From: Megaustenia siamemsis
Taxonomy: Eukaryota > Mollusca > Gastropoda > Stylommatophora > Ariophantidae
Length of the DNA: 64,000 nucleotides
Direction of reading: 5' to 3'
Assembly: GCA_032433765.1 (NCBI GenBank)
Contig: JAVIAB010000156.1
Coordinates: 85,419,015 to 85,483,014 of the forward strand
Part shown: one piece after another, positions 1-49,574 of the stretch
Layout: each line of letters begins with the position of its first letter
How positions within the stretch are numbered: the first letter of the stretch is position 1
Position numbers and translations under genes: made by a program
Notes under the pieces: model-generated
Seen by the model: only the letters and a program-made list of their open reading frames with translations
Database searches by the model: none
Told to the model about the DNA's origin: nothing

Positions 1-3000
1 CTAGCAATAGGAACTTGGAACATTAGATCAGCATTCCAGGTTGGAAAATTAGAAAACATCAGCCAAGAAATGAAGAGAATGAAATTGAACATCTTGGGAC
101 TATGTGAAATGAGATGGACAGAAGCAGGATTATTACAACGCGACAGTGGAAATGTAATTTACTCTGGGGGAACCACACATGAAAGAGGAGTAGGCATTAT
201 TTTAGATAGAGAAAGAAGCAAAACAGTGAAAGGATTTTGACCAGTATCGGACAGAATTCTGCTAGTAAAACTGAGAGGCAGACCAATGGATATCAACATA
301 ATTCAAGTTTATGCACCAACAAGTAACAGCGAAGAAGAAGACATTAACACTTTTTACGAGGAGCTAGAGATGACCATGGAACAGTGTAAATCCCAAGAAA
401 TAACTGTTGTATTAGGGGATTTCAATGCAAAGGTAGGAACAGCTAAAGTGCAAAATGTGACTGGGGGACATGGCCTTGGAGAGACGAAAGACAGAGGAGA
501 TAGATTGATAGATTTGGCAAAGACACATGAAATGATTATAGGTAACACCTGGTTCAAACAACACCCTAGGCGACTATGGACATAGCAAAGCCCAGACAAA
601 AAAGTACACAATCAAATTGATTTTATACTAGTACAGAGAAGATTCAGGAATGGGCTAACATCGGTTAAAATAAGGCCAGGAGCAGATTGCAAAAGTGACC
701 ATGTACCAGCAGTTGGAAAGATAAGAATAAAACTGCGGAAGGCACAGAAATCACCAAGAAATATAAAATTAGAACTAGATATGCTAAGAGTAGATAAACA
801 GATGAGTGATAAGTACAGCACGATAGTACAAAATAGATATAATCTTCTTCTACCTTTTAGCTCCCAGTGGAGCATAGGTCTTCAACAAACACTTTCCAAG
901 TCGTTCTATTTTTTGCCGTTCTTTTAAGATCATTCCATGTCTTCCCCATCATCTTCATCTCTGCTTCAATATGTCTTCTCCAAGAATTCCTTGGTCTTCC
1001 TCTTTGTCTTTTCCCCTGGGGATTCCAAAAAAGGGCCTGTTGTGTAATACTCTCAGTTGGCTTCCGCAGTGTGTGTCCTATCCATCGCCATCGTCTTCGC
1101 TGTATCTCTTTATCCATTGGTATTTGACCGGTACATTTCCATAATTCCACGTTAGTGACTTTGTCCTGCCATTATAGATATAATGCTATTGAGAAAATAC
1201 AGGACATCCAGGAGCAGTGGGAAATGCTCAAACAATCGATTCAACAAACATCAAAAGAAGTAATACCAGTGACTAAAAGAATCAACAAAAAGAAATGGAT
1301 GACAGAAAAAATATTACAACTAATGGTCGAAAGAAGAAGACATAAGAAAGAAGAACGGACATACATAATATTGCACAAAGAGATCCAAAACAAGTGCAGT
1401 GAAGCAAAGGAAGGTTGGTTAAAACAGAAATGTGAAGAAATGGAAAAACAACAAAAGAAAGATTCAAAATTTATGCACAATCAGTTAAATGAATTAACAG
1501 GAAGAAAAGAAGTCAAAGTTTCAGGATGTGTGAAATCAAAGGAAGGAAATATAATAATGGGACAGGAGAAGACAATGGAAAGATGGACAGAATATATCAG
1601 TCAACTCTATGATGATGAAAGACCAGAATTAAACAATTCAAATGAAGACACAGGACCACCAATAATGCAGAGTGAAGTGGAGGACGCAATTCAACACATG
1701 AAAAGAGGCAAAGCTCCAGGTCCCGACAATATAACAATCGAAGAGATAAATGCATTAGGAGAGCTGGGAGTACAAGTCATAACAAAATTACTCAATGACA
1801 TATATAACACTGGACACATACCCGAAGATCTACTAAAATCTATCTTTGTAGCCATACCAAAGAAGTCAGGAGCCACTGATTGTAAAGACCATCGCACTAT
1901 TAGTCTCATGAGCCATATGACTAAAATATTACTAAGAATAATCATGAGACGTGTAAGGAACAAAATAAAACCAGAAATAAGTGAGGAACAATGTGGATTT
2001 GTGGAAGGAAAGGGCACCAATAATGCAATATACATCTGAAGAACATTGATAGAAAGATCTATAGAGGTAAAGAAAGATCTATATATGTGCTTTATAGACA
2101 ACACGAAAGCATTTGACAAAGTAAAGCATGTAGAAATAATCAATATGCTGGAGAAATTAAACATTGATGGCAAGGATCTGCGAAACATAAAAAACATGTA
2201 CTGGCAACAAACAGCAGCTATACGAATTAACAACCAAACAGGACAATTCCAATATATAAAGCAAGGAGTCAGACAAGGCTGTGTTCTGTCGCTGGATTTG
2301 TTTTCACTTTACAGCGAATATATTATGAGATCAATAGTAGACAAAAAAGGAATTGAAGTCAACGGTCATAACATAAATAATTTGCAATATGTGGATGACA
2401 CAGTCTTAATAGCAGAGACAGAGAATGAACTACAAGAAATGATAGACATAATAGTAAAAGAAAGCAACAAGAAAGGTCTCAGTCTGAATAGTAAGAAAAC
2501 AGAAGAAATGGTTATATCGAAGAAACAATCACCGCCATCATGCAGCATAAAAATAAATCAGACAAATCTGAAACAAGTGCAACGTTTCAAATGCTTGGGC
2601 ACAATAATAACATCAGATGGGAGATGCACTACAGAAATAAAAAGCAGAATAGCTTAGGCCAAAATAGCATTTCAGAAAATGAAAAATATCTTATGCAATA
2701 AATCTATGTCAATAAAAATGAGAAAGAGAGTTCATCGGTGCTATATAGAACCAATTCCGACCTATGGAAGCGAATCATGGACAGTAGACAAACAAATGAA
2801 AAGACGATTAGAGGCCACAGAGATGGGATTTCTCAGAAGAATGTTGAAAGTTCACTGGACAGCTAAAAAGACCAATGAGGAATGTCTCAAAGAGGCCAAC
2901 ACAAAAAGGGAGCTCTTAAAAAACATCAGAAAGAAGCAATCAACATTTTTTGGGCACATCATGAGAAGAGGAAAGTTGGAATACTTGGTTACAACTGGCA

Positions 3001-3161
3001 AAATAAAAGGAAAGAGAGATCGCGGACGACAAAGAGAGAAAATACTGGATAGCTTGGTGTCATGGCTTGGAAAACAGTCAACAACAGAACTCATACGATG
3101 CACTGTAGATAGAAGATTGTGGAGGGACATGATCACCTACGCCAACTGGTATGGCACATGA
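1..3161 (+). pseudogene. Near-complete non-LTR retrotransposon (family A): endonuclease-reverse transcriptase
   Basis: The reading frame starts outside the window at the left edge. It holds an APE-type endonuclease (GTWNIRS near residue 5, LCEMRW, VVLGDFNAKVG, DFILV, SDHVP), then a reverse transcriptase with GKAPGPDNI, CGFVEGKGTNNAI, FIDNTKAFDKV, GVRQGCVLS and the catalytic box as YVDD. The C-terminal region has FGHIMRR and ends in a TGA followed by ATG repeats. EN and RT in one ORF with a short-repeat tail fits the RTE group. Once the family C insertion at 844-1173 is discounted, the frame is continuous, broken only by stops at 238-240, 583-585, 2037-2039 and 2655-2657. Two to four of these are explained by single transitions at Trp, Gln or Arg codons. 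It is recently dead and lies upstream of the first visible exon. Confidence 0.9.
844..1173 (-). mobile_element. 5'-truncated family C LINE inserted in the family A element
   Basis: On the minus strand this reads as the C-terminal tail of a different endonuclease-RT ([40 protein letters not shown]), then a stop and a short AAG-type tail. It is flanked by the 11-bp target-site duplication ATAGATATAAT at 833-843 and 1174-1184. Removing the insert and one duplicate brings the host LINE back into frame across ...VQNRYN/AIEKIQD. This is a textbook 5'-truncated target-primed insertion. Confidence 0.92.
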
Positions 3162-3169
3162 TGATGATG

Positions 3170-4068
3170 GTAAAGAGTTAATGACATTTTTTGGCAAGTA
3201 TGTGGGTGATTGGTAAAGAATTAATGACATTATTGGTCAAGTATGTGGTTGATTGGTAAAGAGTTAATGCAAGTGTACGGGTCATTGGTAAAGAGTTAAT
3301 GACATTATTGGACTAGTATGTGGTTGATTGGTAAAGAGTTAATGCAAGTGTATGGGTGATTGGTAAAGAGTTAATGACATTATTGGGCAAGTATTTGGGT
3401 GATTGTAAAGAGTTAATGACATTATTGGGCAAGTATTTGGGTGATTGTAAAGATTTAATGACATTATTGGGCAAGTATTTGGGTGATTGGTAAAGAGTTA
3501 ATTACATTATTGGGCAAGTATGTGGGTGATTGTTATAGAGTTAATGACATTATTGGGCAAGTATTTGGGTGATTGTAAAGAATGACATTATTGGGCAAGT
3601 ATTTGGATGATTGGTAAAGAGTTAATGACATTATTGGGCAAGTATGTATGTGATTGGTAAAGATTTAATGACATTATTGGGCAAGTATGTGGGTGATTGT
3701 TATAGAGTTAATGACATTATTGGGCAAGTATGTGGGTGATTGTTATAGAGTTAATGACATTATTGGGCAAGTGTGTGGGTGATTGTTATAGAGTTAATGA
3801 CATTATTGGGCAAGTATGTATGTGATTGGTAAAGAGTTAATTACATTATTGGGCAAGTATGTGGGTGATTGTTATAGAGTTAATGACATTATTGGGCAAG
3901 TATGTGGGTGATTGTTATAGAGTTAATGACATTTTTGGACAAGTATGTGGGTGATTGTTATAGAGTTAATGACATTTTTGGACAAGTATGTGGGTGATTG
4001 TTATAGAGTTAATGACATTTTTGGACAAGTGTGTGGGTGATTGTTATAGAGTTAATGACATTGGTTTA
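3170..4068. repeat. 43-bp minisatellite
   Basis: About 20 copies of a 43-bp unit containing GAGTTAATGACATTATTGGG and GCAAGTATGTGGGTGATTG. Spacing between unit starts is 43 bp where measured (3698 to 3741). It begins right after the ATG-repeat tail of the family A LINE and ends about 25 bp before the acceptor of the first vWA exon. Shortened units around 3410-3600 show copy-level deletions. Confidence 0.93.
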
Positions 4069-4093
4069 AATAACAAAAACATCCATTTTTCAG

Positions 4094-4406
4094 CATGTGG
4101 TCCCCCAGCAGATGTTGTATTCATACTTGATTCATCAGTTTCTGTTGGAGCTACAAACTTTGATGTTATCAAAACTTATGCACAGACATTAGTTACTCAG
4201 ATGAATGTACTGTCCTGTAGTGTCAACATTGGAGCAGTCAAATACAGTTCCACTGCAATGATTCAGTTTCATCTGGATACTCATCGTTCAGAGGATGATA
4301 TTGTAAGAGCCATCCAGGATATTAGATTCACTCCAGGGAGATCAAACATGGCAGCAGCTCTCAGAGTCGTTCGTAATCAGATGTTTACAGGCAGAAATGG
4401 AGACAG
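4094..4406 (+). CDS. Exon: vWA domain 1, first part
   Basis: The exon opens in phase 1 after TTTTTCAG and closes in phase 2 before GTACCT. It encodes the N-terminal two thirds of a von Willebrand factor A domain: a leading Cys (CGPPADVVFILD), the MIDAS motif DSSVS, the helix TNFDVIKTYAQTLV, the strand NIGAVKYSS, and GRSNMAAALRVV, which holds the second MIDAS position as Ser where most vWA domains have Thr. vWA domains bind ligands through a divalent metal held by these loops. A Cys also occurs mid-domain (VLSCSVN). The previous exon is outside the window; only the LINE and minisatellite lie to the left. Confidence 0.9.
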
Positions 4407-4445
4407 GTACCTTTTTTTTATTTTTGCTTCCTTTCTTCTTTAGTA

Positions 4446-4777
4446 ACATTTTGCACATATCTTTCTAGTAAAGTTATACATAGATTCATCTCTCTAATAA
4501 AATTACACATAGTTTCATCTCTAGTAAAATTTTACATATTTTTATCTCTCTGTTTAATTGTAGATAGTTTCATCTCTCTAGTAAAATTACACATAGTTTC
4601 ATCTCTCTAATAAATTGACACATAGTTTCATCTCTCTAGTAAAATTATGCCTAGTTTCATCACTCTAGTAAAATTGTACATAGTTTCATCACTCTAGTAA
4701 AATTGTACATAGTTTCATCTCTCTGGTAAAAGTGTAGATAGTTTCATCTCTAGTAAAATTGTACATAGTTTCATCAC
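4446..4777. repeat. 29-bp minisatellite, left fragment of the giant array
   Basis: About 11 diverged copies of the unit CATAGTTTCATCTCTCTAGT plus AAAATTGTA. This is the same unit as the array at 6892-18042. The composite element at 4778-6875 separates the two, so they were one array before that insertion. Confidence 0.9.
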
Positions 4778-5495
4778 AAAGCCCAACGGCCAAGATCTGA
4801 ATTTGCAGAATGGTACGTTGTGTGCATAACAGCAGAGATTTACACCACAATATGTCATCCAACAAGCTTTGTGGTTATGTGCACAAAGCAACGTGCCTGT
4901 ATCTTGGTCATGTGCATTCTAGTCTTGTCGTCGTCGCTGTATATGGCCACTGCTGTTGCTGCTGAGGTAACGCCAAACGAGATAGGTCTTGAGAAATGCT
5001 TGCCAAGTCCAAGGCTGATGTTCTTGCACATAATAACCTACATTGACTCGGTAGTAACGTTGCTACTACCGCTGATCGCCACTTCTGTCATGCTCTTCAT
5101 GATCGTTCTGTCCATCATACACAAGTCCCGGTGGAAGAAGCTCAGTGGCCTGCCGATGCTGGAAGTTTCCGAGATGAAACGGATCAATGATCCTAGTTTG
5201 GAGCTCAGTGCGAGCTAGCGCCCAGGTTCATGTGTCTAGAATGCTCTTTGCCTTGTCACTATCTTACATCATCATGAACGCACCAAGCCACGTGGCCAGA
5301 CTGTACTATCTGATGTGGGCTCAAAACTCAGGGGACATGAAATTGACATTCTCTGAAGGTCTTATCCGGCTAATCTTCCAGCACGTCAGCCACGCCCACC
5401 ATGCCTGCAAGTTGTGGATCTTCGTGGTCGTCAGTAGAAACTTTACCAAGAACCTCAGACAAACTTTGGTGGACGTTACCAAGTGTATATGTTAG
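4778..5495 (+). pseudogene. Captured rhodopsin-type GPCR fragment (TM3 to TM7)
   Basis: The frame reads through EFAEWYVVCITAEIYTTICH, which is the end of TM3 with the DRY/ERY motif present as EIY. Then come a TM4-like ILVMCILVLSSSLYMA, a TM5-like segment (VTLLLPLIATSVMLFMIVLS) and a basic third loop. A one-base frameshift near 5215 moves into a second frame with TM6-like MLFALSLSYIIMNAPSHVA and a TM7/helix-8 stretch ending KLWIFVVVSRNFTKNLRQ. The fragment begins at TM3, lacks TM1-2, and its frame stops at 5493-5495 inside the first VNTR unit, so it has no 3' UTR of its own. The relatives are peptide or chemosensory class A receptors; the ligand is unknown. Confidence 0.75.
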
Positions 5496-6530
5496 TCGTG
5501 GCTTATATCTTGGTGGTTGTCTGTGCTAACCATGACTCATATCTTTGTGTGTGTATGTGATAGCCATGGCTCCTGTCTTGGTGGGTGTCTGTAACAGCCA
5601 TGGCTCAGTTCTCGGTGTATATCTGTGCTAGTCATAGCTTATATCTTAGTGGGAGTCTGTGATAGCCATGGCTGATATCTTGGTGGGTGTATGTGCTAGC
5701 CATGGCTCATATCTTGGTGTATTTCCGTGCTAGCCATAGCTCATATCTTAATGTGTTTCAGTGCTAGTTATGATTCATATCTCTTTGTGTTGCCATAAAT
5801 CCATGGCTCATATCTTAATGTGTTTCTGTGCTAGCCATGGCTCATATCTTAACTTGTGTGTGTGTGTGTTCTAGCCATTGCTCATATCTTTGTGTGTGTC
5901 TATGTTTAGTCATATCTCATATCTTATTGTGTACCTGTGTTAGTCATGTGTCATATCTTTGTGCATGCATGTCTGTGTTAGTCATATCTCATGTCTATGT
6001 TAATCACATCTCATACATTTGTGTGTGCATGTCTATGTTAGTCATGTCTCATATATTTGTGTTTATGTTTATGCTAGTCACTACTCATATCTTGATGTGT
6101 GTCTGTCTATATTAGTCATGTCTCATATCTTTGTGTGTTTGTGTTTAGTCATATCTCATATCTTTGTGTGTGTGTGTGTGTTAATGTTAGTCATGCCTCA
6201 TATCTTTGTGTGATTGTGTTTAGTCACATCTCCTATCTTTGTGAGTGCATTTTTATGTTAGTCATGTCTCATATCTTTGTGTGTGCATGACTGTGTTTAG
6301 TCATATCTCATATCTTAGTGTATGTATTTGTGTTAATCATATCTCATATTTTAGAGTCTGTCTGTGTTAGTCACATCTCATATCTTAGTTTGTGTGTGTC
6401 TGTGAGTGTGTCTGTGATAGTCATATCTCATATCTTGGTGTGTGTCAGTGTTAGTCATGCCTCATACCGTTGTGTGCATGTCAGTGTTAGTCACATCTCA
6501 TATCTTTGTGTGTGCATGTCTGTGTTAGTC
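5496..6530 (+). repeat. VNTR of composite element copy 1
   Basis: About 30 units of roughly 30-38 bp built on CATGGCTCATATCTTGGTGT plus a CTGTGCTAG-type end. The array changes from left to right: early units read GCTAGCCATGGCTCATATC, later units read GTTAGTCACATCTCATATC followed by TTTGTGTGTGCATGTCTGT. The same gradient in the same order is seen at 49575-50270, so the array was polarised before the copies separated. Runs of open frame through it are repeat artefacts. Confidence 0.9.
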
Positions 6531-6875
6531 ACCTCTAGTGACTCGGGCAGATGGTGCTCGTAAACCTGGGAGGGCCGACCATCTAAGGGCAGAATCCCCC
6601 TACAGAAAAGATCATCTGCTGCCTTGCAGGAAGATTGGGGACAATCAAAGGCTAAGGAAAGCAAACCTGAATAAAATGCTGGCTGAAATCGGATGCACTG
6701 GGCCACTGGCACAGAACACAGTGCAACATTATAATAGGTATTCAATCAGAGTGGATTCAACAAACTCTACTTGTGATGTTCTGTCTGTAGGGTCGATCAA
6801 TTCACTTAAACAGACAGATGCCTTCATGTGAGAATCTGGAATCCTCCTCTGATTGAGTCTTGATCGCAGAGAGAG
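6531..6875 (+). mobile_element. Conserved 3' module of composite element, copy 1
   Basis: The unique sequence starts at CCTCTAGTGACTCGGGCAGA and ends near TTGATCGCAGAGAGA. It aligns without large gaps to 50271-50616; I count about 27 differences in ~340 bp (around 8%). Both copies have an open frame of 97 codons, but replacements are about as common as silent changes, so coding is unlikely. It is probably the element's functional 3' end, recognised by a helper reverse transcriptase; that is inference. Confidence 0.8.
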
Positions 6876-6891
6876 AGTGAGAGATAGTATA

Positions 6892-9800
6892 GTAAAGTTG
6901 TACATATTTTCATCGCTCAAATAAAATTGTAGATAGGTTCATATCTCTAGTAAAATTTTTTTTAATTTCATCTCTCTAGTAAAATTGTACATAGTTTTAT
7001 CTCTCTAGTAAAATGTTACATAGTTTTATCTCTCTAGTAAAATTATACATAGTTTTATCTCTCTAGTAAAATGTTACATAGTTTTATCTCTCTAGTAAAA
7101 TGTTACATAGTTTTATCTCTCTAGTAAAATTATACATAGTTTTATCTCTCTAGTAAAATGTTACATAGTTTTATCTCTCTAGTAAAATTATACATAGTTT
7201 TATCTCTCTAGTAAAATTGTACATAGTTTTATCTCTCTAGTAAAATTGTACATAGTTTTATCTCTCTAGTAAAATTGTACATAGTTTTATCTCTCTAGTA
7301 AAATTGTACATAGTTTTATCTCTCTAGTAAAATTGTACATAGTTTTATCTCTCTAGTAAAATTGTACATAGTTTTATCTCTCTAGTAAAATTGTACATAG
7401 TTTTATCTCTCTAGTAAAATGTTACATAGTTTCATCTCTCTAGTAAAATGTTACATAGTTTCATCTCTCTAATAAAATTGTACATAGTTTTATCTCTCTA
7501 GTAAAATGTTACATAGTTTCATCTCTCTAATAAAATTGTACATAGTTTCATCTCTCTAATAAAATTGTACATAGTTTCATCTCTCTAATAAAATTGTACA
7601 TAGTTTCATCTCTCTAATAAAATTGTACATAGTTTTATCTCTCTAGTAAAATGTTACATAGTTTCATCTCTCTAGTAAAATGTTACATAGTTTCATCTCT
7701 CTAATAAAATGTTACATAGTTTCATCTCTCTAGTAAAATGTTACATAGTTTCATCTCTCTAGTAAAATGTTACATAGTTTCATCTCTCTAGTAAAATGTT
7801 ACATAGTTTCATCTCTCCAGTAAAATTGTACATAGTTTCATCTCTCTAGTAAAATTGTACATAGTTTCATCTCTCTAGTAAAATTGTACATAGTTTCATC
7901 TCTCTAGTAAAATTGTACATAGTTTCATCTCTCTAGTAAAATGTTACATAGTTTCATCTCTCTAATAAAATTGTACATAGTTTCATCTCTCTAGTAAAAT
8001 TGTACATAGTTTCATCTTTCTAGTAAAATTGTACATAGTTTCATCTCTCTAATAAAATTGTACAAAGTTTCATCTCTCTAATAAACTTGTAGATAGTTTC
8101 ATCTCTCTAGTAAAATTGTACAAAGTTTCATCTCTCTAATAAACTTGTAGATAGTTTCATCTCTCTAGTAAAATTGTACATAGTTTCATCTCTCTAGTAA
8201 AATTGTACATAGTTTTATCTCTCTAGTAAAATTTTTTTTAGTTTCATCTCTCTAGTAAAATTGTACATAGTTTCATCTCTCTAATAAAATTGTACATAGT
8301 TTCATCTCTCTAATAAACTTGTAGATAGTTTCATCTCTCTAGTAAAATTGTACATAGTTTCATCTCTCTAGTAAAATTGTACATAGTTTTATCTCTCTAG
8401 TAAAGTTTTTTTTAGTTTCATCTCTCTAGTAAAATTGTACATAGTTTCATCTCTCTAATAAACTTGTACATAGTTTCATCTCTCTAGTAAACTTGTAGAT
8501 AGTTTCATCTCTCTAATAAACTTGTACATAGTTTCATCTCTCTAATAAAATTGTACATAGTTTTATCTCTCTAGTAAATTTGTAGATAGTTTCATCTCTC
8601 AAAGAAAATTGTACATAGTTTCATCTCTCTAGTAAACTTGTAGATAGTTTCATCTCTCTAATAAACTTGTAGATAGTTTCATCTCTCTAATAAACTTGTA
8701 GATAGTTTCATCTCTCTAATAAACTTGTAGATAGTTTCATCTCTCTAGTAAAGTTGTACATAGTTTCATCTTTCTAGTAAAATTGTACATAGTTTCATCT
8801 CTCTAATAAAATTGTACAAAGTTTCATCTCTCTAATAAACTTGTAGATAGTTTCATCTCTCTAGTAAAATTGTACATAGTTTCATCTCTCTAGTAAAATT
8901 GTACATAGTTTTATCTCTCTAGTAAAATTTTGTTTAGTTTCATCTCTCTAGTAAAATTGTACATAGTTTTATCTCTCTAGTAAAATGTTACATAGTTTCA
9001 TCTCTCTAGTAAACTTGTAGATAGTTTCATCTCTCTAATAAACTTGTACATAGTTTCATCTCTCTAATAAACTTGTAGATAGTTTCATCTCTCAAATAAA
9101 ATTGTACATTGTTTTATCTCTCTAGTAAATTTTTTTTTTAGTTTCATCTCTCTAGTAAAATTGTACATAGTTTCATCTCTCTAATAAAATTGTACATAGT
9201 TTCATCTCTCTAATAAACTTGTAGATAGTTTCATCTCTCTAGTAAAATTGTACATAGTTTCATCTCTCTAATAAACTTGTAGATAGTTTCATCTCTCTAG
9301 TAAAATTGTACATAGTTTCATCTCTCTAGTAAAATTGTACATAGTTTTATCTGTCTAGTAAAATTTTTTTTTAGTTTCATCTCTCTAGTAAAATTGTACA
9401 TAGTTTTATCTCTCTAGTAAAATGTTACATAGTTTTATCTCTCTAGTAAACTTGTAGATAGTTTCATCTCTCTAATAAACTTGTACATAGTTTCATCTCT
9501 CTAATAAACTTGTAGATAGTTTCATCTCTCTAATAAACTTGTACATAGTTTCATCTCTCTAATAAACTTGTAGATAGTTTCATCGCTCAAATAAAATTGT
9601 AGATAGGTTCATATCTCTAGTAAAATTTTTTTTAGTTTCATCTCTCTAGTAAAATTGTACATAGTTTCATCTCTCAAGTAAAATTGTACATAGTTTCATC
9701 TCTCTAGTAAAATTGTACATAGTTTCATCTCTCTAGTAAAATTATACATAGTTTTATCTCTCTAGTAAAATGTTACATAGTTTTATCTCTCTAGTAAAAT

Positions 9801-12800
9801 TATACATAGTTTTATCTCTCTAGTAAAATGTTACATAGTTTTATCTCTCTAGTAAAATTATACATAGTTTTATCTCTCTAGTAAAATTGTACATAGTTTT
9901 ATCTCTCTAGTAAAATGTTACATAGTTTTATCTCTCTAGTAAAATTGTACATAGTTTTATCTCTCTAGTAAAATTGTACATAGTTTTATCTCTCTAGTAA
10001 AATTGTACATAGTTTTATCTCTCTAGTAAAATTGTACATAGTTCTATCTCTCTAGTAAAATTGTACATAGTTGTATCTCTCTAGTAAAATGTTACATAGT
10101 TTCATCTCTCTAGTAAAATTGTACATAGTTTTATCTCTCTAGTAAAATTGTACATAGTTTTATCTCTCTAGTAAAATTGTACATAGTTTTATCTCTCTAG
10201 TAAAATTGTACATAGTTTTATCTCTCTAGTAAAATTGTACATAGTTTCATCTCTCTAGTAAAATTGTACATAGTTTCATCTCTCTAGTAAAATGTTACAT
10301 AGTTTCATCTCTCTAGTAAAATGTTACATAGTTTCATCTCTCTAATAAAATTGTACATAGTTTCATCTCTCTAGTAAAATGTTACATAGTTTCATCTCTC
10401 TAATAAAATTGTACATAGTTTCATCTCTCTAGTAAAATGTTACATAGTTTCATCTCTCTAGTAAAATGTTACATAGTTTCATCTCTCTAGTAAAATTGTA
10501 CATAGTTTCATCTCTCTAGTAAAATTGTACATAGTTTCATCTCTCTAGTAAAATGTTACATAGTTTCATCTCTCTAGTAAAATGTTACATAGTTTCATCT
10601 CTCTAATAAAATTGTACATAGTTTCATCTCTCTAGTAAAATGTTACATAGTTTCATCTCTCTAGTAAAATGTTACATAGTTTCATCTCTCTAATAAAATG
10701 TTACATAGTTTCATCTCTCTAGTGAAATGTTACATAGTTTCATCTCTCTAGTAAAATGTTACATAGTTTCATCTCTCTAGTAAAATGTTACATAGTTTCA
10801 TCTCTCTAGTAAAATTGTACATAGTTTCATCTCTCTAGTAAAATTGTACATAGTTTCATCTCTCTAGTAAAATTGTACATAGTTTCATCTCTCTAGTAAA
10901 ATTGTACATAGTTTCATCTCTCTAGTAAAATGTTACATAGTTTCATCTCTCTAGTAAAATTGTACATAGTTTTATCTCTCTAGTAAAATGTTACATAGTT
11001 TCATCTCTCTAATAAAATTGTACATAGTTTCATCTCTCTAGTAAAATTGTACATAGTTTTATCTCTCTAGTAAAATGTTACATAGTTTCATCTCTCTAGT
11101 AAAATGTTACATAGTTTCATCTCTCTAATAAAATGTTACATAGTTTCATCTCTCTAGTAAAATGTTACATAGTTTCATCTCTCTAGTAAAATGTTACATA
11201 GTTTCATCTCTCTAGTAAAATGTTACATAGTTTCATCTCTCTAGTAAAATGTTACATAGTTTCATCTCTCTAGTAAAATGTTACATAGTTTCATCTCTCT
11301 AATAAAATGTTACATAGTTTCATCTCTCTAGTAAAATGTTACATAGTTTCATCTCTCTAGTAAAATGTTACATAGTTTTATCTCTCTAGTAAAATGTTAC
11401 ATAGTTTCATCTCTCTAGTAAAATGTTACATAGTTTCATCTCTCTAGTAGAATGTTACATAGTTTCATCTCTCTAGTAAAATGTTACATAGTTTCATCTT
11501 TCTAATAAAATGTTACATAGTTTCATCTCTCTAGTAAAATGTTACATAGTTTCATCTCTCTAGTAAAATGTTACATAGTTTCATCTCTCTAATAAAATTG
11601 TACATAGTTTCATCTCTCTAGTAAAATGTTACATAGTTTCATCTCTCTAATAAAATGTTACATAGTTTCATCTCTCTAGTAAAATGTTACATAGTTTCAT
11701 CTCTCTAGTAAAATGTTACATAGTTTCATCTCTGTAATAAAATTGTACATAGTTTCATCTCTCTAGTAAAATGTTACATAGTTTCATCTCTCTAGTAAAA
11801 TGTTACATAGTTTCATCTCTCTAGTAAACTTGTAGATAGTTTCATCTCTCTAATAAACTTGTACATAGTTTCATCTCTCTAATAAACTTGTAGATAGTTT
11901 CATCTCTCTAATAAACTTGTACATAGTTTCATCTCTCTAATAAACTTGTAGATAGTTTCATCGCTCAAATAAAATTGTAGATAGGTTCATATCTCTAGTA
12001 AAATTTTTTTAGTTTCATCTCTCTAGTAAAATTGTACATAGTTTCATCTCTCAAGTAAAATTGTACATAGTTTCATCTCTCTAGTAAAATTGTACATAGT
12101 TTCATCTCTCTAGTAAAATTATACATAGTTTTATCTCTCTAGTAAAATGTTACATAGTTTTATTTCTCTAGTAAAATTATACATAGTTTTATCTCTCTAG
12201 TAAAATGTTACATAGTTTTATCTCTCTAGTAAAATTATACATAGTTTTATCTTTCTAGTAAAATTGTACATAGTTTTATCTCTCTAGTAAAATGTTACAT
12301 AGTTTTATCTCTCTAGTAAAATTGTACATAGTTTTATCTCTCTAGTAAAATTGTACATAGTTTTATCTCTCTAGTAAAATTGTACATAGTTTTATCTCTC
12401 TAGTAAAATTGTACATAGTTCTATCTCTCTAGTAAAATTGTACATAGTTGTATCTCTCTAGTAAAATGTTACATAGTTTCATCTCTCTAGTAAAATTGTA
12501 CATAGTTTTATCTCTCTAGTAAAATTGTACATAGTTTTATCTCTCTAGTAAAATTGTACATAGTTTTATCTCTCTAGTAAAATTGTACATAGTTTTATCT
12601 CTCTAGTAAAATTGTACATAGTTTCATCTCTCTAGTAAAATTGTACATAGTTTCATCTCTCTAGTAAAATGTTACATAGTTTCATCTCTCTAGTAAAATG
12701 TTACATAGTTTCATCTCTCTAATAAAATTGTACATAGTTTCATCTCTCTAGTAAAATGTTACATAGTTTCATCTCTCTAATAAAATTGTACATAGTTTCA

Positions 12801-15800
12801 TCTCTCTAGTAAAATGTTACATAGTTTCATCTCTCTAGTAAAATGTTACATAGTTTCATCTCTCTAGTAAAATTGTACATAGTTTCATCTCTCTAGTAAA
12901 ATTGTACATAGTTTCATCTCTCTAGTAAAATGTTACATAGTTTCATCTCTCTAGTAAAATGTTACATAGTTTCATCTCTCTAGTAAAATGTTACATAGTT
13001 TCATCTCTCTAGTAAAATGTTACATAGTTTCATCTCTCTAGTAAAATTGTACATAGTTTTATCTCTCTAGTAAAATGTTACATAGTTTCATCTCTCTAAT
13101 AAAATTGTACATAGTTTCATCTCTCTAGTAAAATGTTACATAGTTTCATCTCTCTAATAAAATTGTACATAGTTTCATCTCTCTAGTAAAATGTTACATA
13201 GTTTCATCTCTCTAGTAAAATGTTACATAGTTTCATCTCTCTAATAAAATGTTACATAGTTTCATCTCTCTAGTGAAATGTTACATAGTTTCATCTCTCT
13301 AGTAAAATGTTACATAGTTTCATCTCTCTAGTAAAATGTTACAAAGTTTCATCTCTCTAGTAAAATTGTACATAGTTTCATCTCTCTAGTAAAATTGTAC
13401 ATAGTTTCATCTCTCTAGTAAAATTGTACATAGTTTCATCTCTCTAGTAAAATTGTACATAGTTTCATCTCTCTAGTAAAATTGTACATAGTTTCATCTC
13501 TCTAGTAAAATGTTACATAGTTTCATCTCTCTAGTAAAATTGTACATAGTTTTATCTCTCTAGTAAAATGTTACATAGTTTCATCTCTCTAATAAAATTG
13601 TACATAGTTTCATCTCTCTAGTAAAATTGTACATAGTTTTATCTCTCTAGTAAAATGTTACATAGTTTCATCTCTCTAGTAAAATGTTACATAGTTTCAT
13701 CTCTCTAATAAAATTGTACATAGTTTCATCTCTCTAGTAAAATGTTACATAGTTTCATCTCTCTAGTAAAATGTTACATAGTTTCATCTCTCTAGTAAAA
13801 TGTTACATAGTTTCATCTCTCTAGTAAAATGTTACATAGTTTCATCTCTCTAGTAAAATGTTACATAGTTTCATCTCTCTAATAAAATGTTACATAGTTT
13901 CATCTCTCTAGTAAAATTGTACATAGTTTCATCTCTCTAGTAAAATGTTACATAGTTTCATCTCTCTAGTAAAATGTTACATAGTTTCATCTCTCTAGTA
14001 AAATGTTACATAGTTTTATCTCTCTAGTAAAATGTTACATAGTTTCATCTCTCTAGTAAAATGTTACATAGTTTCATCTCTCTAGTAGAATGTTACATAG
14101 TTTCATCTCTCTAGTAAAATGTTACATAGTTTCATCTTTCTAATAAAATGTTACATAGTTTCATCTCTCTAGTAAAATGTTACATAGTTTCATCTCTCTA
14201 GTAAAATGTTACATAGTTTCATCTCTCTAATAAAATTGTACATAGTTTCATCTCTCTAGTAAAATGTTACATAGTTTCATCTCTCTAATAAAATGTTACA
14301 TAGTTTCATCTCTCTAGTAAAATGTTACATAGTTTCATCTCTCTAGTAAAATGTTACATAGTTTCATCTCTCTAATAAAATTGTACATAGTTTCATCTCT
14401 CTAGTAAAATGTTACATAGTTTCATCTTTCTAGTAAAATGTTACATAGTTTCATCTCTCTAGTAAAATGTTACATAGTTTCATCTCTCTAGTAAAATGTT
14501 ACATAGTTTCATCTCTCTAATAAAATTGTACATAGTTTTATCTCTCTAGTAAAATGTTACATAGTTTCATCTCTCTAATAAAATTGTACATAGTTTCATC
14601 TCTCTAGTAAAATGTTACATAGTTTCATCTCTCTAGTAAAATTGTACATAGTTTCATCTCTCTAATAAACTTGTAGATAGTTTCATCTCTCTAATAAACT
14701 TGTACATAGTTTCATCTCTCTAATAAACTTGTAGATAGTTTCATCTCTCGAATAAACTTGTACATAGTTTCATCTCTCTAATAAACTTGTAGATAGTTTC
14801 ATCGCTCAAATAAAATTGTAGATAGGTTCATATCTCTAGTAAAATTTTTTTAGTTTCATCTCTCTAGTAAAATTGTACATAGTTTCATCTCTCAAGTAAA
14901 ATTGTACATAGTTTCATCTCTCTAGTAAAATGTTACATAGTTTCATCTCTCTAATAAAATTGTACATAGTTTCATCTCTCTAGTAAAATGTTACATAGTT
15001 TCATCTCTCTAGTAAAATTGTACATAGTTTCATCTCTCTAATAAACTTGTAGATAGTTTCATCTCTCTAATAAACTTGTAGATAGTTTCATCTCTCTAAT
15101 AAACTTGTAGATAGTTTCATCTCTCTAGTAAAATTGTACATAGTTTCATCTCTCTAATAAACTTGTACATAGTTTCATCTCTCTAGTAAAATTGTACATA
15201 GTTTCATCTTTCTAGTAAAATTGTACATAGTTTCATCTCTCTAATAAAATTGTACAAAGTTTCATCTCTCTAATAAACTTGTAGATAGTTTCATCTCTCT
15301 AGTAAAATTGTACAAAGTTTCATCTCTCTAATAAACTTGTAGATAGTTTCATCTCTCTAGTAAAATTGTACATAGTTTCATCTCTCTAGTAAAATTGTAC
15401 ATAGTTTTATCTCTCTAGTAAAATTTTTTTTTAGTTTCATCTCTCTAGTAAAATTGTACATAGTTTCATCTCTCTAATAAAATTGTACATAGTTTCATCT
15501 CTCTAATAAACTTGTAGATAGTTTCATCTCTCTAGTAAAATTGTACATAGTTTCATCTCTCTAATAAACTTGTAGATAGTTTCATCTCTCTAGTAAAATT
15601 GTACATAGTTTCATCTCTCTAGTAAAATTGTACATAGTTTTATCTCTCTAGTAAAGTTTTTTTTAGTTTCATCTCTCTAGTAAAATTGTACATAGTTTTA
15701 TCTCTCTAGTAAAGTTTTTTTTAGTTTCATCTCTCTAGTAAAATTGTACATAGTTTCATCTCTCTAGTAAACTTGTAGATAGTTTCATCTCTCTAATAAA

Positions 15801-18042
15801 CTTGTAGATAGTTTCATCTCTCTAGTAAAGTTGTACATAGTTTCATCTTTCTAGTAAAATTGTACATAGTTTCATCTCTCTAATAAAATTGTACAAAGTT
15901 TCATCTCTCTAATAAACTTGTAGATAGTTTCATCTCTCTAGTAAAATTGTACATAGTTTCATCTCTCTAGTAAAATTGTACATAGTTTTATCTCTCTAGT
16001 AAAATTTTTTTTAGTTTCATCTCTCTAGTAAAATTGTACATAGTTTTATCTCTCTAGTAAAATGTTACATAGTTTCATCTCTCTAGTAAACTTGTAGATA
16101 GTTTTATCTCTCTAATAAACTTGTACATAGTTTCATATCTCTAATAAACTTGTAGATAGTTTCATCTCTCAAATAAAATTGTACATTGTTTTATCTCTCT
16201 AGTAAAATTTTTTTTAGTTTCATCTCTCTAGTAAAATTGTACATAGTTTCATCTCTCTAATAAACTTGTAGATAGTTTCATCTCTCTAGTAAAATTGTAC
16301 ATAGTTTCATCTCTCTAATAAACTTGTAGATAGTTTCATCTCTCTAGTAAAATTGTACATAGTTTCATCTCTCTAGTAAAATTGTACATAGTTTTATCTC
16401 TCTAGTAAAATTTTTTTTTAGTTTCATCTCTCTAGTAAAATTGTACATAGTTTCATCTCTCTAATAAACTTGTAGATAGTTTCATCTCTCTAATAAACTT
16501 GTACATAGTTTCATCTCTCTAATAAACTTGTAGATAGTTTCATCTCTCGAATAAACTTGTACATAGTTTCATCTCTCTAATAAACTTGTAGATAGTTTCA
16601 TCGCTCAAATAAAATTGTAGATAGGTTCATATCTCTAGTAAAATTTTTTTAGTTTCATCTCTCTAGTAAAATTGTACATAGTTTCATCTCTCAAGTAAAA
16701 TTGTACATAGTTTCATCTCTCTAGTAAAATTGTACATAGTTTCATCTCTCTAGTAAAATTGTACATATTTTCATCTCTCTAGTAAAATTGTACATAGTTT
16801 CATTTCTATAATAAACTTGTAGATAGTTTCATCTCTCAAATAAAATTGCACATAGTTTCATCTCTCTAGTAAACTTGTAGATAGTTTCATCGCTCAAATA
16901 AAATTGTAGATAGGTTCATATCTCTAGTAAAATTTTTTTTAGTTTCATCTCTCTAGTAAACTTGTAGATAGTTTCATCTCTCAAGTAAAATTGTACATAG
17001 TTTCATCTCTCTAGTAAAATTGTACATAGTTTCATCTCTCTAATAAACTTGTAGATAGTTTCATCTCTCTAATAAACTTGTAGATAGTTTCATCTCTCAA
17101 ATAAAATTATACATAGTTTCATCTCTTTAGTAAACTTGTAGATAGTTTCATCTCTCTAATAAACTTGTAGATAATTTCATCTCTCTAATAAACTTGTACA
17201 TAGTTTCATCTCTCTAATAAACTTGTACATAGTTTCATCTCTCTAGTAAACTTGTACATAGTTTCATCTCTCTAATAAACTTATAGATAGTTTCATCTCT
17301 CTAATAAACGTGTAGATAGTTTCATCTCTCTAGTAAAATTGTACATAGTTTCATCATTCTAGTAAAATTGTACATAGTTTCATCTCTCTAATAAACATGT
17401 AGATAGTTTCATCTCTCTAATAAAATTGTACATAGTTTCATCTCTCTAGTAAACTTATAGATAGTTTCATCTCTCTAGTAAAATTGTACATAGTTTCATC
17501 TCTCTATTAAACTTGTAGATAGTTTCATCTCTCTAGTAAAATTGTACATAGTTTCATCTCTCTAGTAAACTTATAGATAGTTTCATCTCTCTAATAAAAT
17601 TGTACATAGTTTCATCTCTCTAGTATAAACTTATAGATAGTTTCATCTCTCTAGTAAAATTGTACATAGTTTCATCTCTCTAGTATAAACTATCTAGTAT
17701 AAACTTATAGATAGTTTCATCTCTCTAGTAAAATTGTACATAGTTTCATCTCTCTAGTATAAACTATCTAGTATAAACTTATAGATAGTTTCATCTCTCT
17801 AGTAAAATTGTACATAGTTTCATCTCTCTAGTAAACTTGTAGATAGTTTCATCTCTCTAGTAAAATTGTACATAGTTTCATCTCTCTAGTAAACTTGTAG
17901 ATAGTTTCATCTCTCTAGTAAAATTGTACATAGTTTCATCTCTCTAGTAAACTTATAGATAGTTTCATCTCTCTAGTAAAATTGTAGATAGTTTCATCTC
18001 TCTAGTAAAGTTGTAGATAGTTTCATCTCTCAAATAAAATTG
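6892..18042. repeat. 11.1-kb 29-bp minisatellite with higher-order repeats
   Basis: About 380 copies of a 29-bp unit. Main variants are TAGTAAAATTGTACATAG, TAGTAAAATGTTACATAG, AATAAACTTGTAGATAG and a T-run form AGTAAAATTTTTTTTAG. A rare marker unit with CATCGCTCAAATAAAATTGT recurs near 6911, 9582, 11961, 14801, 16601 and 16887. The segments starting at 9582 and 11961 share private variants in the same order (GTTCTATC, GTTGTATC, AGTGAAATG, AGTAGAATG), so a block of about 2.4-2.8 kb was duplicated in tandem. It fills most of the first visible intron. There are no unique spacers, so it is not a CRISPR array. Confidence 0.95.
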
Positions 18043-18336
18043 TAATGAAATTCTCATAAAGAGGCCAACACAAAAAGGGAGCTCCTAAGAAATATCAAAA
18101 AGAAATAATCAACATTTTTCGGGCACATCATGAGAAGAGGAAAGTTGGAATACTTGATTACAACTGGCAAAATATAGGGAAAGAGAGATCACGGACGACA
18201 AAGAGAGAAAATACTATATAGCTTGGTGTCATGGCATGGAAAACAGTCAACAACAGAATTGATATGATGCACTATAGATAGAAGATTGTGTAAGGACATG
18301 ATCACCTATGCCAGCCGATATGGCAGATGATGACTA
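18043..18336 (+). mobile_element. Family A LINE, 3'-end fragment
   Basis: It matches the last ~290 bp of the element at 1-3161 (AAGAGGCCAACACAAAAAGG onward, through GGGCACATCATGAGAAGAGG, to GGCAGATGATGAC). Several substitutions and stops are present. It abuts the right edge of the giant minisatellite. Confidence 0.85.
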
Positions 18337-19350: not shown

Positions 19351-19649
19351 GGATATATATATGTATATCCAACTATATATATTCTGTAGTAAAATTATGC
19401 ACATTTTCATTCATTTCATACATTTGTGTATGTTTGTACCCCTGTAATGAGACTGTGACCATATTTTAAAGCTACATTTGCTAATCTCGGTGCCTACAAC
19501 ATAGGTCTGTTTTCTGTCACATTTTAAAAGAAAGTGTTTTCCCAAAAACTGGTAAAACTGCATTATCTCCCCATCATGTCAGTGTTAACTGCTGTGGACA
19601 AAATAAATAATAAAGTTTGAATCTATTAAGTTTTACTGTAATTTTGCAG

Positions 19650-19897
19650 AGAAAATGTTCGCAATATTGCATTCCTTTTGACTGATGGTTCAGTGGACAT
19701 TAACGAAGACATCACAACATCTGAAATTGAACAGACAGTTGATGCTGGTGTGCATGTGATACCCCTGGCAGTAGGTCTAAGGGAGCGCACAGAAATTGAG
19801 TACATAGCAGAGAGTCAGGGCATTCCTCTAGTAGAGATTGAGAATGAGGACAGCTTTATTGCCATGAGTGACCAAGTTCTGGAAGCAGTACATGACA
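19650..19897 (+). CDS. Exon: vWA domain 1, second part
   Basis: The acceptor TTTTGCAG and phase 2 match the end of the exon at 4094-4406; the exon closes in phase 1 at GTAAGT. It carries the last MIDAS aspartate in AFLLTDGSVD, then a helix with DAGVHVIPLAVG, the standard vWA strand, and a C-terminal helix (MSDQVLEAVHD). Joined with the previous exon the module is 187 codons, a normal vWA size. Unlike vWA2 and vWA3, it ends without a Cys to pair with the leading Cys. Confidence 0.9.
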
Positions 19898-20112
19898 GTA
19901 AGTCCTTGCTGGCCATATAAAAGTGTTCATGAACAAAGACCATTACTGCTCACACATCAGTAATGTGATATTTGTCTCTTGATCAATCATTGCTTGCAAA
20001 TAATTCTATAGATGCCTTCATTTTCAACAGTTTCTAAAAGTCATTCTATTATTACTAGTACATTGTGAAGAAATACACAGATGACATGACAGCATGTAAG
20101 TATAACCTGCAG

Positions 20113-21103: not shown

Positions 21104-21474
21104 CATCATCATGTGCCGTACCGGTTGGCGTTGGCGATCATGTCCCTCCACAATCTTCTATCTACAGTGCATCGTATGAGTTCTGTTGTTGACTGTTTTC
21201 CATGCCATGACACCAAGCTATCCAGTATTTTCTCTCTTTGTCATCCGTGATCTCTCTTTCCTTTTATTTTGCCAGTTGTAACCAAGTATTCCAACTTTCC
21301 TCTTCTCATGATTTGCCCAAAAAATGTTAATTGTTTCTTTCTGATGTTTTTTAAGAGCTCCCTTTTTGTGTTGGGATTTTTTAGAACTTTCTCATTGGTC
21401 TTTTTAGCTGTCCGGGGAACTTTCAACATTCTTCTGAGAAATCCCATCTCTGTGGCCTCTAATCATCTTTTCAT
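21104..21474 (-). mobile_element. Family A LINE, 5'-truncated insertion with TSD
   Basis: The minus strand matches the last 370 bp of family A, ending in GGCACATGATGATGA. It is flanked by the 11-bp direct repeat TTTTATGAGGT at 21093-21103 and 21475-21485. The frame carries stops and small changes. Confidence 0.88.
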
Positions 21475-21485
21475 TTTTATGAGGT

Positions 21486-21902
21486 AGGCTGAGGATAACT
21501 TGGACATTAGAAGGCGTTATCTAACTGTGGAAGTCCAAATTGGCTTGGGTTGTCTGTTTATGTGCACCTAACAATAGCTTCCTGCTACCATCCATGCACC
21601 ATTGAGTCCAAGGTATCCACTATCTGTGTGTAATTAGTTTTAGCGATGAATGCATGTAGATCACAAGCTCAAGCCAAATGCCTAGAATGGTGGTTCTAAG
21701 GCAAATTTGTTAAAGTATTTGACCCAGTCAGTAAAATGGTAGGTCATAACAAATGAGGCTTATTTAACATAGAATTGCAATGTTTACTAGAACAGAATGG
21801 TCATTGTTCCTCAGAGCTGCAATCTTGGCATATACTGATTCCAGTGCTGATAGAATATTACTTTACTGTTTTATATACAATTGCTATATTATAAAAGTTT
21901 AA
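21486..21902. other. Intron sequence without recognised features
   Basis: I see no repeat, RNA gene or exon signal here. It is moderately AT-rich and unique within the window. Confidence 0.5.
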
Positions 21903-22158
21903 AAAAAGTAAAGTGCCCCATCATGCCAAGTGGTGTATAGGGAATATGGTGTTAGTGACCATAATGTTTACAGACCTTCGGCACCTGATTTTTTGGGTAA
22001 TGTGGTAGGTTTTACGCCTGTGCCACTTTACTTTCCCAGAAAAAATCTGATACCCATTAAGGCTACATGAACCTGGAAGTCGTCAGTTAGGATCAAACCC
22101 AACCTCTTTGTCTTTAGTAGTCCAGTTAACTAACCTCTGAGCTATCGCGGCTCCCATT
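21903..22158 (-). mobile_element. tRNA-derived SINE (type 1), near full length
   Basis: The reverse complement starts GGGAGCCGCGATAGCTCAGA, a tRNA-like head with an A box (TAGCTCAGAGGTTAG) and a weakened B box (GGTTTGATCC). A body with TCTGGGAAAGTAAAGTGGCA and a TGGTCACTAACACCATATTC segment follows, with a T-rich end. The copy at 52584-52850 aligns over its whole length, which defines the family. Confidence 0.85.
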
Positions 22159-22260
22159 TCTACATTATGGTTGAAACTAAACAAGAAGATTAGCTTTCAA
22201 ACAAACAAATCTGTGTCAGTTTGTTAAGTTGAGAATATGCAAAAAAACATACTCTTTTAA

Positions 22261-22557
22261 TCATCATCAAGTACCGGGCTTGCTGACGTAGGTGATCATG
22301 TCTCTCCACAACTTTCGATCTCGACAGTTATTTATCTTTTCTGATGTTGACTTTCTGCCAAGCCATTCTTTTAAGCTGTCTGGTATCTTTTCTCTTTATT
22401 TCCCTCTATCTCTTCATCCCTTAATTTTCCCAGTTGTTATAATATATTCCAGATGTTCTCTTCTCATTACATGGCCAAAAAAATGATGATTGTTTCTTCC
22501 TAATATTGGAAATTAGCTCTTTTTTAGGCATTTGCCCCTTTCAGAACATTTTTATTA
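22261..22557 (-). mobile_element. Family A' LINE, 3' fragment
   Basis: The minus strand gives the A' C-terminal region (FGHVMRR-like, IIT-GKIKG, RRS-TEMI) and a TACTTGATGATGA end. It includes the uninterrupted sequence ATGTTCTGAAAGGGGCAAAT (read on minus). That is the site occupied by the composite element in the A' copy at 46285-50893, so this copy shows the empty target. Confidence 0.8.
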
Positions 22558-23663
22558 CTCTTGTAATACTTTAAATAATTCTTATGTCACTATCTCTTAT
22601 CTGGGGAGAGGTGTCAGAAATGGTATTTCCCTGTAAAGGGATCAAGTAGCAAATAGTTTTGAGTCTCCAGTTTTAGAGATGAGGACAAAAACTGCATTAA
22701 AGCACATTCTGTTGAGAACTGTTTCCAACAAAATTGTTTACACAAAGCTAGTTATATCTATTTTTCTGTGTTCAGTCATGTATCCAGGGATGACTGCTTA
22801 TAATAGTATAAGATGTATGTATATAGAAAGGGACACACAACATGTGCTGGCAATGAGGAAATAAAAGAAAACAAAATAAGAGAAAAAAAGAAAAAGCCAT
22901 ATTTTCTTTCTTGTCTCTTGAGGGCTAATCCATAAATGAATATACATCACTACACTCAAAGATGGCTTCCTTTGTATAGCAGATTCATGTTATACAATTC
23001 AGTTAAATTTCATCAACCATCAATGCACAAATAAAATGTGTGTGATCTTTGAAAGAGGTGGTCATTTCTGGTGTCATTCTAATGTACCAATAGCAAGAAT
23101 AAATTAATTTTTTTAAATCATATTTTTAGCATATAATTATTTCAAGATAGCTGCTTTCTAGCCTCATAATTGAGAAGAGCTTTAGAAAAGACCTCCTGTT
23201 TAAATGTAATTATTTTAAGGGTTAGAAAAATAGTTTGTATATGTTTATATGGCATTTTTAATTTTCGCAAATGGTCTGTAGCAAACAATCAGTAAATGTT
23301 AGCAGATCTAGACATGTTTTTTTTTATCAACCGTTTGTCCACTGAGTTGACATTTACATTTGTTTTTGCTGTCTGGGTAGAAGATATGGTGCTAGCATTG
23401 TGCTCATATCATTCCACTCTTGACTCTACTCAGAACTGCTTCAAAGGAAGGCTGGAGCCTTAATTTTAAATCAGATTTGAGTTGCTGCGGATGCCAGAAG
23501 ATGGAGAGTCACATCCACTCACCACCAAATGTCTCTCCCTCTGGATTTCTATGTAGGAGTTTACTCTTGTAGCCTTTGACCCTCGCAGGTCATTCACAAG
23601 ATACTTGACAGTTAGTGTAGAAAAAATCAGGGATCGCTTACTGGTCAATATAACAGTTTTGTT
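22558..23663. other. Intron sequence without recognised features
   Basis: AT-rich sequence with no clear repeat unit, RNA gene or exon. Open stretches at 22679-22864 and 23466-23648 are short and show no domain. Confidence 0.5.
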
Positions 23664-34412: not shown

Positions 34413-35225
34413 GTATGTAATATTTCCTTTTAATTTATATGAGGCAGACTAGCTGGGGCATTTCTGAAGTCCTCTAGTGATGTAGTTTTGTGACTTGAAG
34501 AAAAAACACAAAAGTGATGCTTCCTTACAATCATGAAAGACATGTGAAAGTCTGTATCTTATCAATTATAGAAGTAACTCCATGTTATTGGTTATTGGTT
34601 ATGGAAGGCCTCGGTATCACTGCAAACGAATTAAAATCCATAATTGCTCAACCGCCCGTGCCAGTGGAATCATCCGAATTACTAACACATCTCCCAAACA
34701 AAGAAAGGTAACTGTAGTCCCCATCGTAGCAGTCTCAGCACACGCCAAAAGACATAAGGCGAAACCGCGCAGAAAGTGACCACAGCCAACTGTTCCCTGT
34801 CATACGATATCATCATTCATCGTAAACAAGCGGGATATCGAAACAGGATCAAAACGGATGAGACACACAGCTCACGGTGTGCACAGAACACTTAACTCAG
34901 TAGCTCCTGCAACTCCCTGTGTGGTTTCCTAAAGAAACACAGAAGTGATGAGCTAAAGAACATGGAATAGGTTTCTTGAGGATTTATGCTGCACAAGGTT
35001 GACGATAAACAGCCTACTTTACTTTCTATTTTCTTCTGTCTCAGAGAAAATAGAGTTTACTGTGTGTCTCGTACTTGCTACTCATTTTGATGTTTGCTTT
35101 TCCATTGACCCATTATCTTCTAAGTCTGCATGGATTCTGTTTTCTCTGTTTGGAATTTACTTTACAATTGGATGATATAATGTTTCCGAAGCATAAGTCT
35201 GCTTTCTTGCTTTATTTTTTATTCA
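34413..35225. other. Intron sequence; short unassigned open frame
   Basis: 34582-34779 encodes a basic peptide ending SAHAKRHKAKPRRK before a stop. The stretch 34580-34930 is more GC-rich than its surroundings, which suggests a foreign fragment, perhaps from a transposon. I do not recognise it and see no splice sites. Confidence 0.4.
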
Positions 35226-37234: not shown

Positions 37235-37765
37235 AAACAAAAGAATAGGAATGGCTAAAAGTAATTTTAATGTCATGAAGATCATACTAACATCAAAACA
37301 AATAACACCAGGGCTAAAACTAAGAATAGCAAAATGATATGTCTTCTCAATATTCCTACATGGTGCAGAAACATGGACATTAGACAAGAAAACAGAACAG
37401 AGAATTGAAGCCTGTGAAATGTGGATACATAGAAGAATAGGTAGAATTGAATGGAAAGAAAAGAAAACAAATGATGAAGTCTTAAAACAACTAAAACTGA
37501 AAAGAGAACTACTAAACACAATTCAAACAAGACAAATGCGATTTTTGGGCCATGTTAAAAAACACAACAGCATACTAAAAGTAATCCTGGAGGGGAAAAT
37601 ACAAGGTAAAAGAGGCAGAGGCAGACCAAGACTAACATGGACGTGTAACATCAAAAGACGGACAAACCAGCCTATGACAACCTGCACCATCAACGCAAGA
37701 GACAGAGCAGAATTGCGTTCCATGGTAGCCAACCTCCGTTGCAGAGATGGCACTCAATGATGATG
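37235..37765 (+). mobile_element. Family B LINE, middle layer (right part)
   Basis: Continues RIGMAKSNFNVMK, GAETWTLDKKTEQRIEA, RRIGRIEWKEKKTN, GKRGRGRPRLTW, to a stop after RDGTQ and TGATGATG. There is one stop near 37337. The frame is in step with the left part at 36162-36345 once the inner element is discounted. Confidence 0.92.
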
Positions 37766-49573: not shown

Positions 49574-49574
49574 T

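Follow-up and report, generated by a model that had tools for sequence, protein, structure and literature searches.

A probable non-autonomous retrotransposon family combining exchangeable 5' parts, a central VNTR and a LINE-derived 3' end in the genome of Megaustenia siamemsis

In the 64-kb stretch of contig JAVIAB010000156.1 of Megaustenia siamemsis analysed here (64,000 nucleotides; hereafter, the window), two blocks carry the same VNTR and the same 345-bp 3' module behind fragments of two different genes. This raises the question of whether such blocks are copies of a mobile element whose 5' part can be exchanged and, if so, how host-gene fragments came to stand in front of it.

The first block (copy 1) spanned about 4776-6885. 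The initial annotation had described a GPCR fragment, a VNTR and a 3' module as one block within a minisatellite continuing on both sides, and this was confirmed by the coordinates and by a match to Pfam 7tm_1: a 29-bp minisatellite flanked copy 1 at 4459-4775 and at 6890-18044. The latter array was 11 kb long, with 384 copies of the 29-bp unit, and copy 1 lay near its left edge. The GPCR fragment was a pseudogene, with a frameshift near 5210. Its first frame matched 7tm_1 with E = 6.2e-7, just under the cut-off (29.6 bits versus 30.5), and had no match in PDB; its second frame had none in Pfam. A longer copy found elsewhere in the genome (L050) contained a piece that matched 7tm_1 above the cut-off (E = 1.3e-7); in PDB, its matches were opioid/adrenergic receptors, with a best E of 1.2e-4.

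The second block (copy 2) was the only other place in the window where a module copy was found. That it carried the same VNTR and 3' module behind a different gene was borne out by the module alignment (Table 1) and by a SCARF-like reading frame. Two of its reading frames (48284-49216 and 49217-49573) lay in the same frame with a single stop between them; the second matched scavenger receptor class F in PDB (E = 2.5e-8), while the longer first frame (310 aa) matched nothing in Pfam or PDB. Copy 2 interrupted another LINE, with a different 3' end, and an uninterrupted related copy of that LINE in the window (22562-22260, minus strand) set its edges at 48171/48172 and near 50616. Consequently, the end first annotated at about 50616 was retained, whereas the start was moved from 48174 to about 48172, the edge of the interrupted LINE. 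Copies or pieces of this other LINE were observed at 1-3170, 21105-22562, 36347-37237, 47840-50890 and 53498-56504.

Table 1. Features of the two composite copies, their flanks and a solitary T3 repeat in the window.
Feature	Position	Strand	Basis
GPCR 5' leader of copy 1, truncated; a deletion joins leader to TM3 region	4776-4811	+	copy comparison
Captured gene fragment of copy 1, rhodopsin-type GPCR, TM3-TM7	4812-5483	+	Pfam 7tm_1, first frame
VNTR of copy 1, ~34-38 bp units	5484-6530	+	repeat scan
3' module of copy 1, part 1: start of LINE reading frame (leading to APE endonuclease in the LINE)	6531-6792	+	L055/L056
3' module of copy 1, part 2: LINE 3' terminus with last codons; internal deletion joins it to part 1	6788-6875	+	L043
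(GA)n tail of copy 1	6868-6885	+	tail comparison
Solitary T3 repeat (elsewhere the third 5' part of the composite)	34597-34913	-	
Left flank of copy 2: other LINE with a different 3' end, interrupted by copy 2	47840-48171	+	
EGF-repeat/SCARF-like gene fragment of copy 2 with 5' leader, intronless	48172-49557	+	PDB match, genome copies
VNTR of copy 2	49558-50267	+	repeat scan
3' module of copy 2, 345 bp, 91.9% to copy 1, gap-free	50268-50612	+	alignment
Short GA tail of copy 2, then G run	50606-50616	+	tail comparison
Right flank of copy 2: remainder of the interrupted LINE	50617-50890	+	

A search of the source genome (2.59 Gb, 155 contigs) with the module, as the initial annotation had proposed, identified a dispersed repeat with 4299 first-look candidates (tool estimates); all 40 scored places were full length, with 94-100% identity, self included. 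We read 31 copies (30 of the 40 scored places and copy 2), a sample chosen by similarity to copy 1 and therefore favouring near copies. These diverged by 0.5-6.6% from the majority module. A GA tract terminated all 31, its length ranging from only 7 purines, in L028, to more than 50. The 3' end was common to these copies and the 5' extent varied, from the module's first bases up to ~2.6 kb upstream of the module. One module copy with an identical 1.5 kb upstream was met twice, at 47.63 and 47.31 Mb of C151 on opposite strands (L044 and L045), and may be an inverted segmental duplication or an assembly duplicate.

TSDs, the hallmark that the initial annotation had suggested looking for, were present in the family but not clear at either window copy. 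Of the 22 copies tried, 13 had repeats of at least 7 bp, against 9.7% in a mismatched-pair control; in 8 they reached 9 bp or more, against 0.4% in the same control. Twenty-three copies had been prepared, of which L022 was lost, its tail motif being mutated; the count leaves out the duplicate L045 as well as L023, L025, L026, L028, L030, L041 and L046, the last with N on its 5' side. For L027, L035, L038 and L049, the 5' windows were moved after a first look, and L037 showed an 8-bp repeat by eye with a TSD score of 5. Copies with the GPCR fragment, the VNTR and the module were bracketed by TSDs of 13 bp (L033), 12 bp (L040, truncated) and 11 bp (L050). Moreover, 7-bp repeats, individually weak since about 10% of copies would show a 7-bp flank match by chance, bracketed L034, of GPCR type, and L042, with T3, VNTR and module. 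As the TSDs bracket whole units, both the GPCR-VNTR-module and the T3-VNTR-module arrangements have moved as units. Copies 1 and 2, both decayed, had no TSD above 5 bp, and none above 3-4 bp was seen at the insertion edges of copy 2.

The claim that the 5' parts are exchangeable was upheld. Among the 31 copies, the sequence directly before the VNTR was the GPCR fragment in seven, a further repeat, T3, in four and the EGF fragment in two, so that no fewer than three 5' parts are exchangeable, every one of them present at more than one place; the remaining 18 copies were uninformative on 5' exchange (17 truncated or unassignable, and L030, ambiguous). The module was thus not always behind one upstream sequence, and in the family the VNTR lay between the 5' parts and the module. 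A candidate fourth type, a 47-bp stretch in L032 and L036, was set aside as ambiguous because the apparent TSD of L036 falls inside it.

Each type had its own junction with the VNTR. The GPCR junction, between GTTACCAAG and TGTATATG, was at an identical position in all seven GPCR-type copies; the EGF junction, with AACCCAAG at the end of the EGF side, fell at the same base in both copies read and in four out of four further copies fetched; and the T3 junction was alike in three of four copies, the fourth having a small deletion. Since the junction is identical within a type, a single acquisition of each 5' part, with later amplification, is probable. Amplification was extensive: the 26 bases spanning the EGF-VNTR junction occurred at 4586 genome places with at most 2 mismatches, and the reversed control at none. 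The finding of only two window copies, both decayed and with no clear TSD, might have suggested that unrelated repeats and pseudogenes had come together by chance in a repeat-rich intron; the junction count and the alike junctions (7/7 for GPCR, 6/6 for EGF) make this so improbable that we do not consider it further.

Genome searches with the 5' parts gave 1305 first-look candidates for the GPCR fragment (40/40 scored at 93-100%, self included), 5680 for the EGF fragment (40/40 at 91-100%) and 10113 for T3 (40/40 at 92-100%), all candidate numbers being tool estimates. The EGF part was a single uninterrupted match of 1.2-1.4 kb in all 40 scored copies, and its 5' end was discrete: 27 of the 40 started at query base 4 or 14, with copy 2 starting at or beside the 5' end of six and the other 21 beginning ~10 bases later. 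Similarly, the GPCR-type copies L033 and L050 started ~30 bp upstream of the leader start of copy 1, at nearly the same leader base and directly after the TSD. Between the leader and TM3, there was no gap in copy 1, one of 58 bp in L033 and one of about 734 bp in L050. Because no GT-AG borders were seen, splicing was dismissed as the source of these gaps in favour of the likelier deletions at short repeats. A promoter-like 5' motif common to the GPCR and EGF leaders was rejected as not significant (543 of 2000 shuffles scored as high).

The third 5' part, T3, forms a repeat of its own, whose 3' end and (TAACCA)n-like tail look like those of a retroelement; in T3-type copies, this 3' end, tail included, was fused to the VNTR. 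The idea that T3 is a LINE 5' UTR was dropped because of its own 3' end, its own tail and its unrelated downstream flanks. In L030, a tRNA-like SINE stretch with a B-box-like GGTTCAAATC (by eye) adjoined a T3 fragment within at most 370 bp before the VNTR, and this copy was excluded from the T3-type count.

The 3' module had been taken for unique sequence, which was contradicted both by its repetition genome-wide and by its derivation from a LINE (L043, L055, L056). By sequence comparison, it is best read as an internally deleted LINE, with the start of the reading frame fused to the 3' terminus and followed by the (GA)n tail, because L055 and L056 extend part 1 and the 3' end of L043 corresponds to part 2 plus the tail. 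Module bases up to 262 continued into LINE sequence in L055 and L056, and in L056 one open frame ran from the module-like 5' part to an APE endonuclease (Pfam Exo_endo_phos, 1.1e-6; PDB LINE-1 endonuclease, 4e-8). Module bases 258-345 (~88 bp) and the GA tail formed the 3' end of L043, a LINE that encodes RNase H (Pfam RNase_H, 1.3e-7); over this 3' end plus tail, L043 was identical to the module of L029 at 97 of 104 bases. A Pfam search gave no match for either of two putative RT stretches of L043. The joint of the two parts fell at module bases 258-262, a few bases common to both, and kept the reading frame for a stretch. The conceptual ORF of the module was accordingly rejected as a new gene, being the LINE reading frame.

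The APE and RNase H domains were read in different LINE copies (L056 and L043, respectively), and the two pieces are assigned to one LINE because the module carries both ends and relatives with a longer 3' piece exist. Indeed, of 40 places scored in a genome search, 22 spanned both pieces, sharing both LINE ends and having this longer 3' piece; in the other 18, the main match was to the 5' piece only, with a same-strand 3' piece nearby in five. The query's VNTR-less upstream sequence was carried by 32 of the 40. The partner is therefore probably an APE/RNase-H LINE, as judged from these domains. Searches for 25- and 22-mers from the module gave no exact match in viral or prokaryote contigs. 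In L022 (1928-2224), the module's last 68 bp, with the GA tail, recurred four more times in tandem downstream, an apparent transition from a LINE 3' end to a satellite-like array.

Overall, the family has an exchangeable 5' part, a VNTR and a module with LINE sequence at both of its ends, and, in the copies read, one junction per 5' type; its copies show TSDs and 5' truncation and were dispersed as units. It is very probably a non-autonomous, non-LTR composite family that ends in an internally deleted LINE and (GA)n, is mobilised in trans by a LINE, and acquired each of its 5' parts once. Features of TPRT products were present, namely 3'-anchored copies, TSDs (not at the window copies) and a (GA)n tail, and TPRT is an established mechanism. 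On this basis, the composite RNA would be reverse transcribed in trans, via TPRT, by the LINE whose 3' end the composite retains, as the 3' anchoring, the TSDs, the truncation and the LINE's own 3' terminus suggest. A transcript starting upstream, at a host-gene promoter in the case of GPCR and EGF, would have continued, by read-through or splicing, into a VNTR-module copy. Ending in the LINE 3' end, this fused RNA would then have been copied and have founded a large subfamily. Capture from a host transcript is suggested by the protein similarity, the uninterrupted copies and the discrete 5' end, and the uninterrupted gene pieces with such an end likewise suggest that the GPCR and EGF RNAs began at the host-gene promoter. 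No intron-bearing parental gene was found for the GPCR or the EGF part among the copies examined.

The 5' parts might also have been added to the same element by template switching, the reverse transcriptase having copied the module and the VNTR and then jumped to GPCR or EGF mRNA or to T3 RNA, the rare products being transcribed and amplified afterwards. An RNA-RNA jump would give what is seen in T3, a tailed repeat fused by its 3' end and tail to the VNTR, and the junctions sit at differing phases of the VNTR unit in the GPCR, EGF and T3 types. However, the GPCR part ends in ACCAAG and the EGF part in CCCAAG, the usual shape of an exon end, and an acceptor-like motif, CATATCTTAG followed by TGTG, occurred within some VNTR units in five of the seven copies examined (absent in C1 and L034); these suggestive features slightly favour splicing, and a jumped copy would, moreover, need a new promoter for its amplification. 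The T3 joint looks equally like template switching or an insertion beside the core. We consider template switching a possible route for the 5' parts, although an unlikely one.

A slightly more doubtful explanation is that two or three real host genes have the VNTR and the module in their 3' part, the copies being processed pseudogenes of these fusion genes. A single source locus for each type would account for the uniform junctions and the discrete 5' end, and the main difference from a mobile composite lies in the location of the active source. Nevertheless, the VNTR and module also occur behind T3, which is not a gene, and the VNTR-less LINE relatives show that the module is a transposon derivative. 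Helitrons can contain captured gene pieces and tandem repeats, as this family does; a Helitron or Helentron origin was rejected as very improbable given the TSDs, the variable 5' extent, the microsatellite tail, the LINE-derived 3' end, the uninterrupted gene pieces, 5' types without a common 5' terminus, and window copies whose insertion sites (GGGG; ATC/TAG) fit neither A/T nor T/T.

Set beside known systems, the composite retrotransposon that we favour shares features with several. HAL1 is an internally deleted LINE that keeps the 3' end needed for mobilisation and has no VNTR or gene-derived 5' parts; the module is likewise a LINE remnant with its 3' end kept, but here it is combined with a VNTR and exchangeable, gene-derived 5' parts. 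Some SINEs share the 3' tail of their partner LINE and a simple-repeat tail, as the composite does, but the composite is about 2-2.8 kb long and its 5' end is not a small-RNA gene. A SINE identity was rejected, the 5' ends being gene fragments or T3 with no small-RNA head; in the window, ARAGORN found no tRNA and Rfam no family at gathering score, three low-score Rfam matches in the two element stretches being read as chance. The hominoid VNTR composites have a poly(A) tail and use LINE-1.

The SVA-like arrangement first proposed fits the family: it is a VNTR composite with exchangeable 5' parts, and the features of the SVA/LAVA class, a central VNTR between heterologous ends and exchangeable 5' modules, were present, the latter in 13 of the 31 copies. 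Among hominine subfamilies, SVA_F1 carries the first exon of MAST2 and pt_SVA_D6 that of STK40 (PMC6139936). These are also non-autonomous VNTR composites mobilised by a LINE in trans (as we infer here), in which the 5' exon of a gene has replaced the 5' end and founded a subfamily. They differ in ending in an endogenous-retrovirus SINE-R and poly(A), where the present family has a deleted-LINE 3' end and a GA tail; here, moreover, no Alu-like part was seen and the genes are different. By inspection, the family is not SVA proper, having no hexamer repeats, Alu-like part, SINE-R 3' end or poly(A). The hominoid VNTR composites likewise have a VNTR core and differing end modules, one being named after a gene, and are called specific to hominoid primates (PMC4432496, PMC7353768). 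Titles and the beginnings of abstracts under open licence named no such element outside hominoid primates, which is weak evidence of absence. We therefore propose that the family is new, as it appears to work like SVA and yet fails SVA's defining parts.

On balance, we lean towards a second origin of VNTR composites, outside primates and on the stump of a partner LINE, in which host exons and a transposable element repeatedly replaced the 5' end, each replacement founding a large subfamily. Should the family prove analogous to SVA, LINE systems would be able to arrive repeatedly at gene capture through a VNTR composite, and the phenomenon would not be peculiar to apes. Thousands of places share one junction, 5' ends are discrete, the 5' part was replaced at least three times and the same genome contains a likely partner LINE, so a census of the family can test old questions: what a LINE requires of a 3' end for use in trans, why the joint repeatedly contains a VNTR, and whether a promoter comes with the captured exons. 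For annotation, many of the gene models for GPCRs and EGF-like proteins in this genome may be retrocopies.

Adjoining copy 2, the window contained transposase-like protein pieces (46488-47600) with weak matches to HTH_32 and DUF4817, below cut-offs. VWA-domain exons were observed at 3973-4440, 19642-19917, 51018-51198 and 58371-58781; the first and last matched Pfam VWA above the cut-off, 19642-19917 was under it, and 51018-51198 was recognised by eye only. Because VWA-domain matches flank both sides, copies 1 and 2 probably lie in repeat-filled introns of a VWA gene or array.
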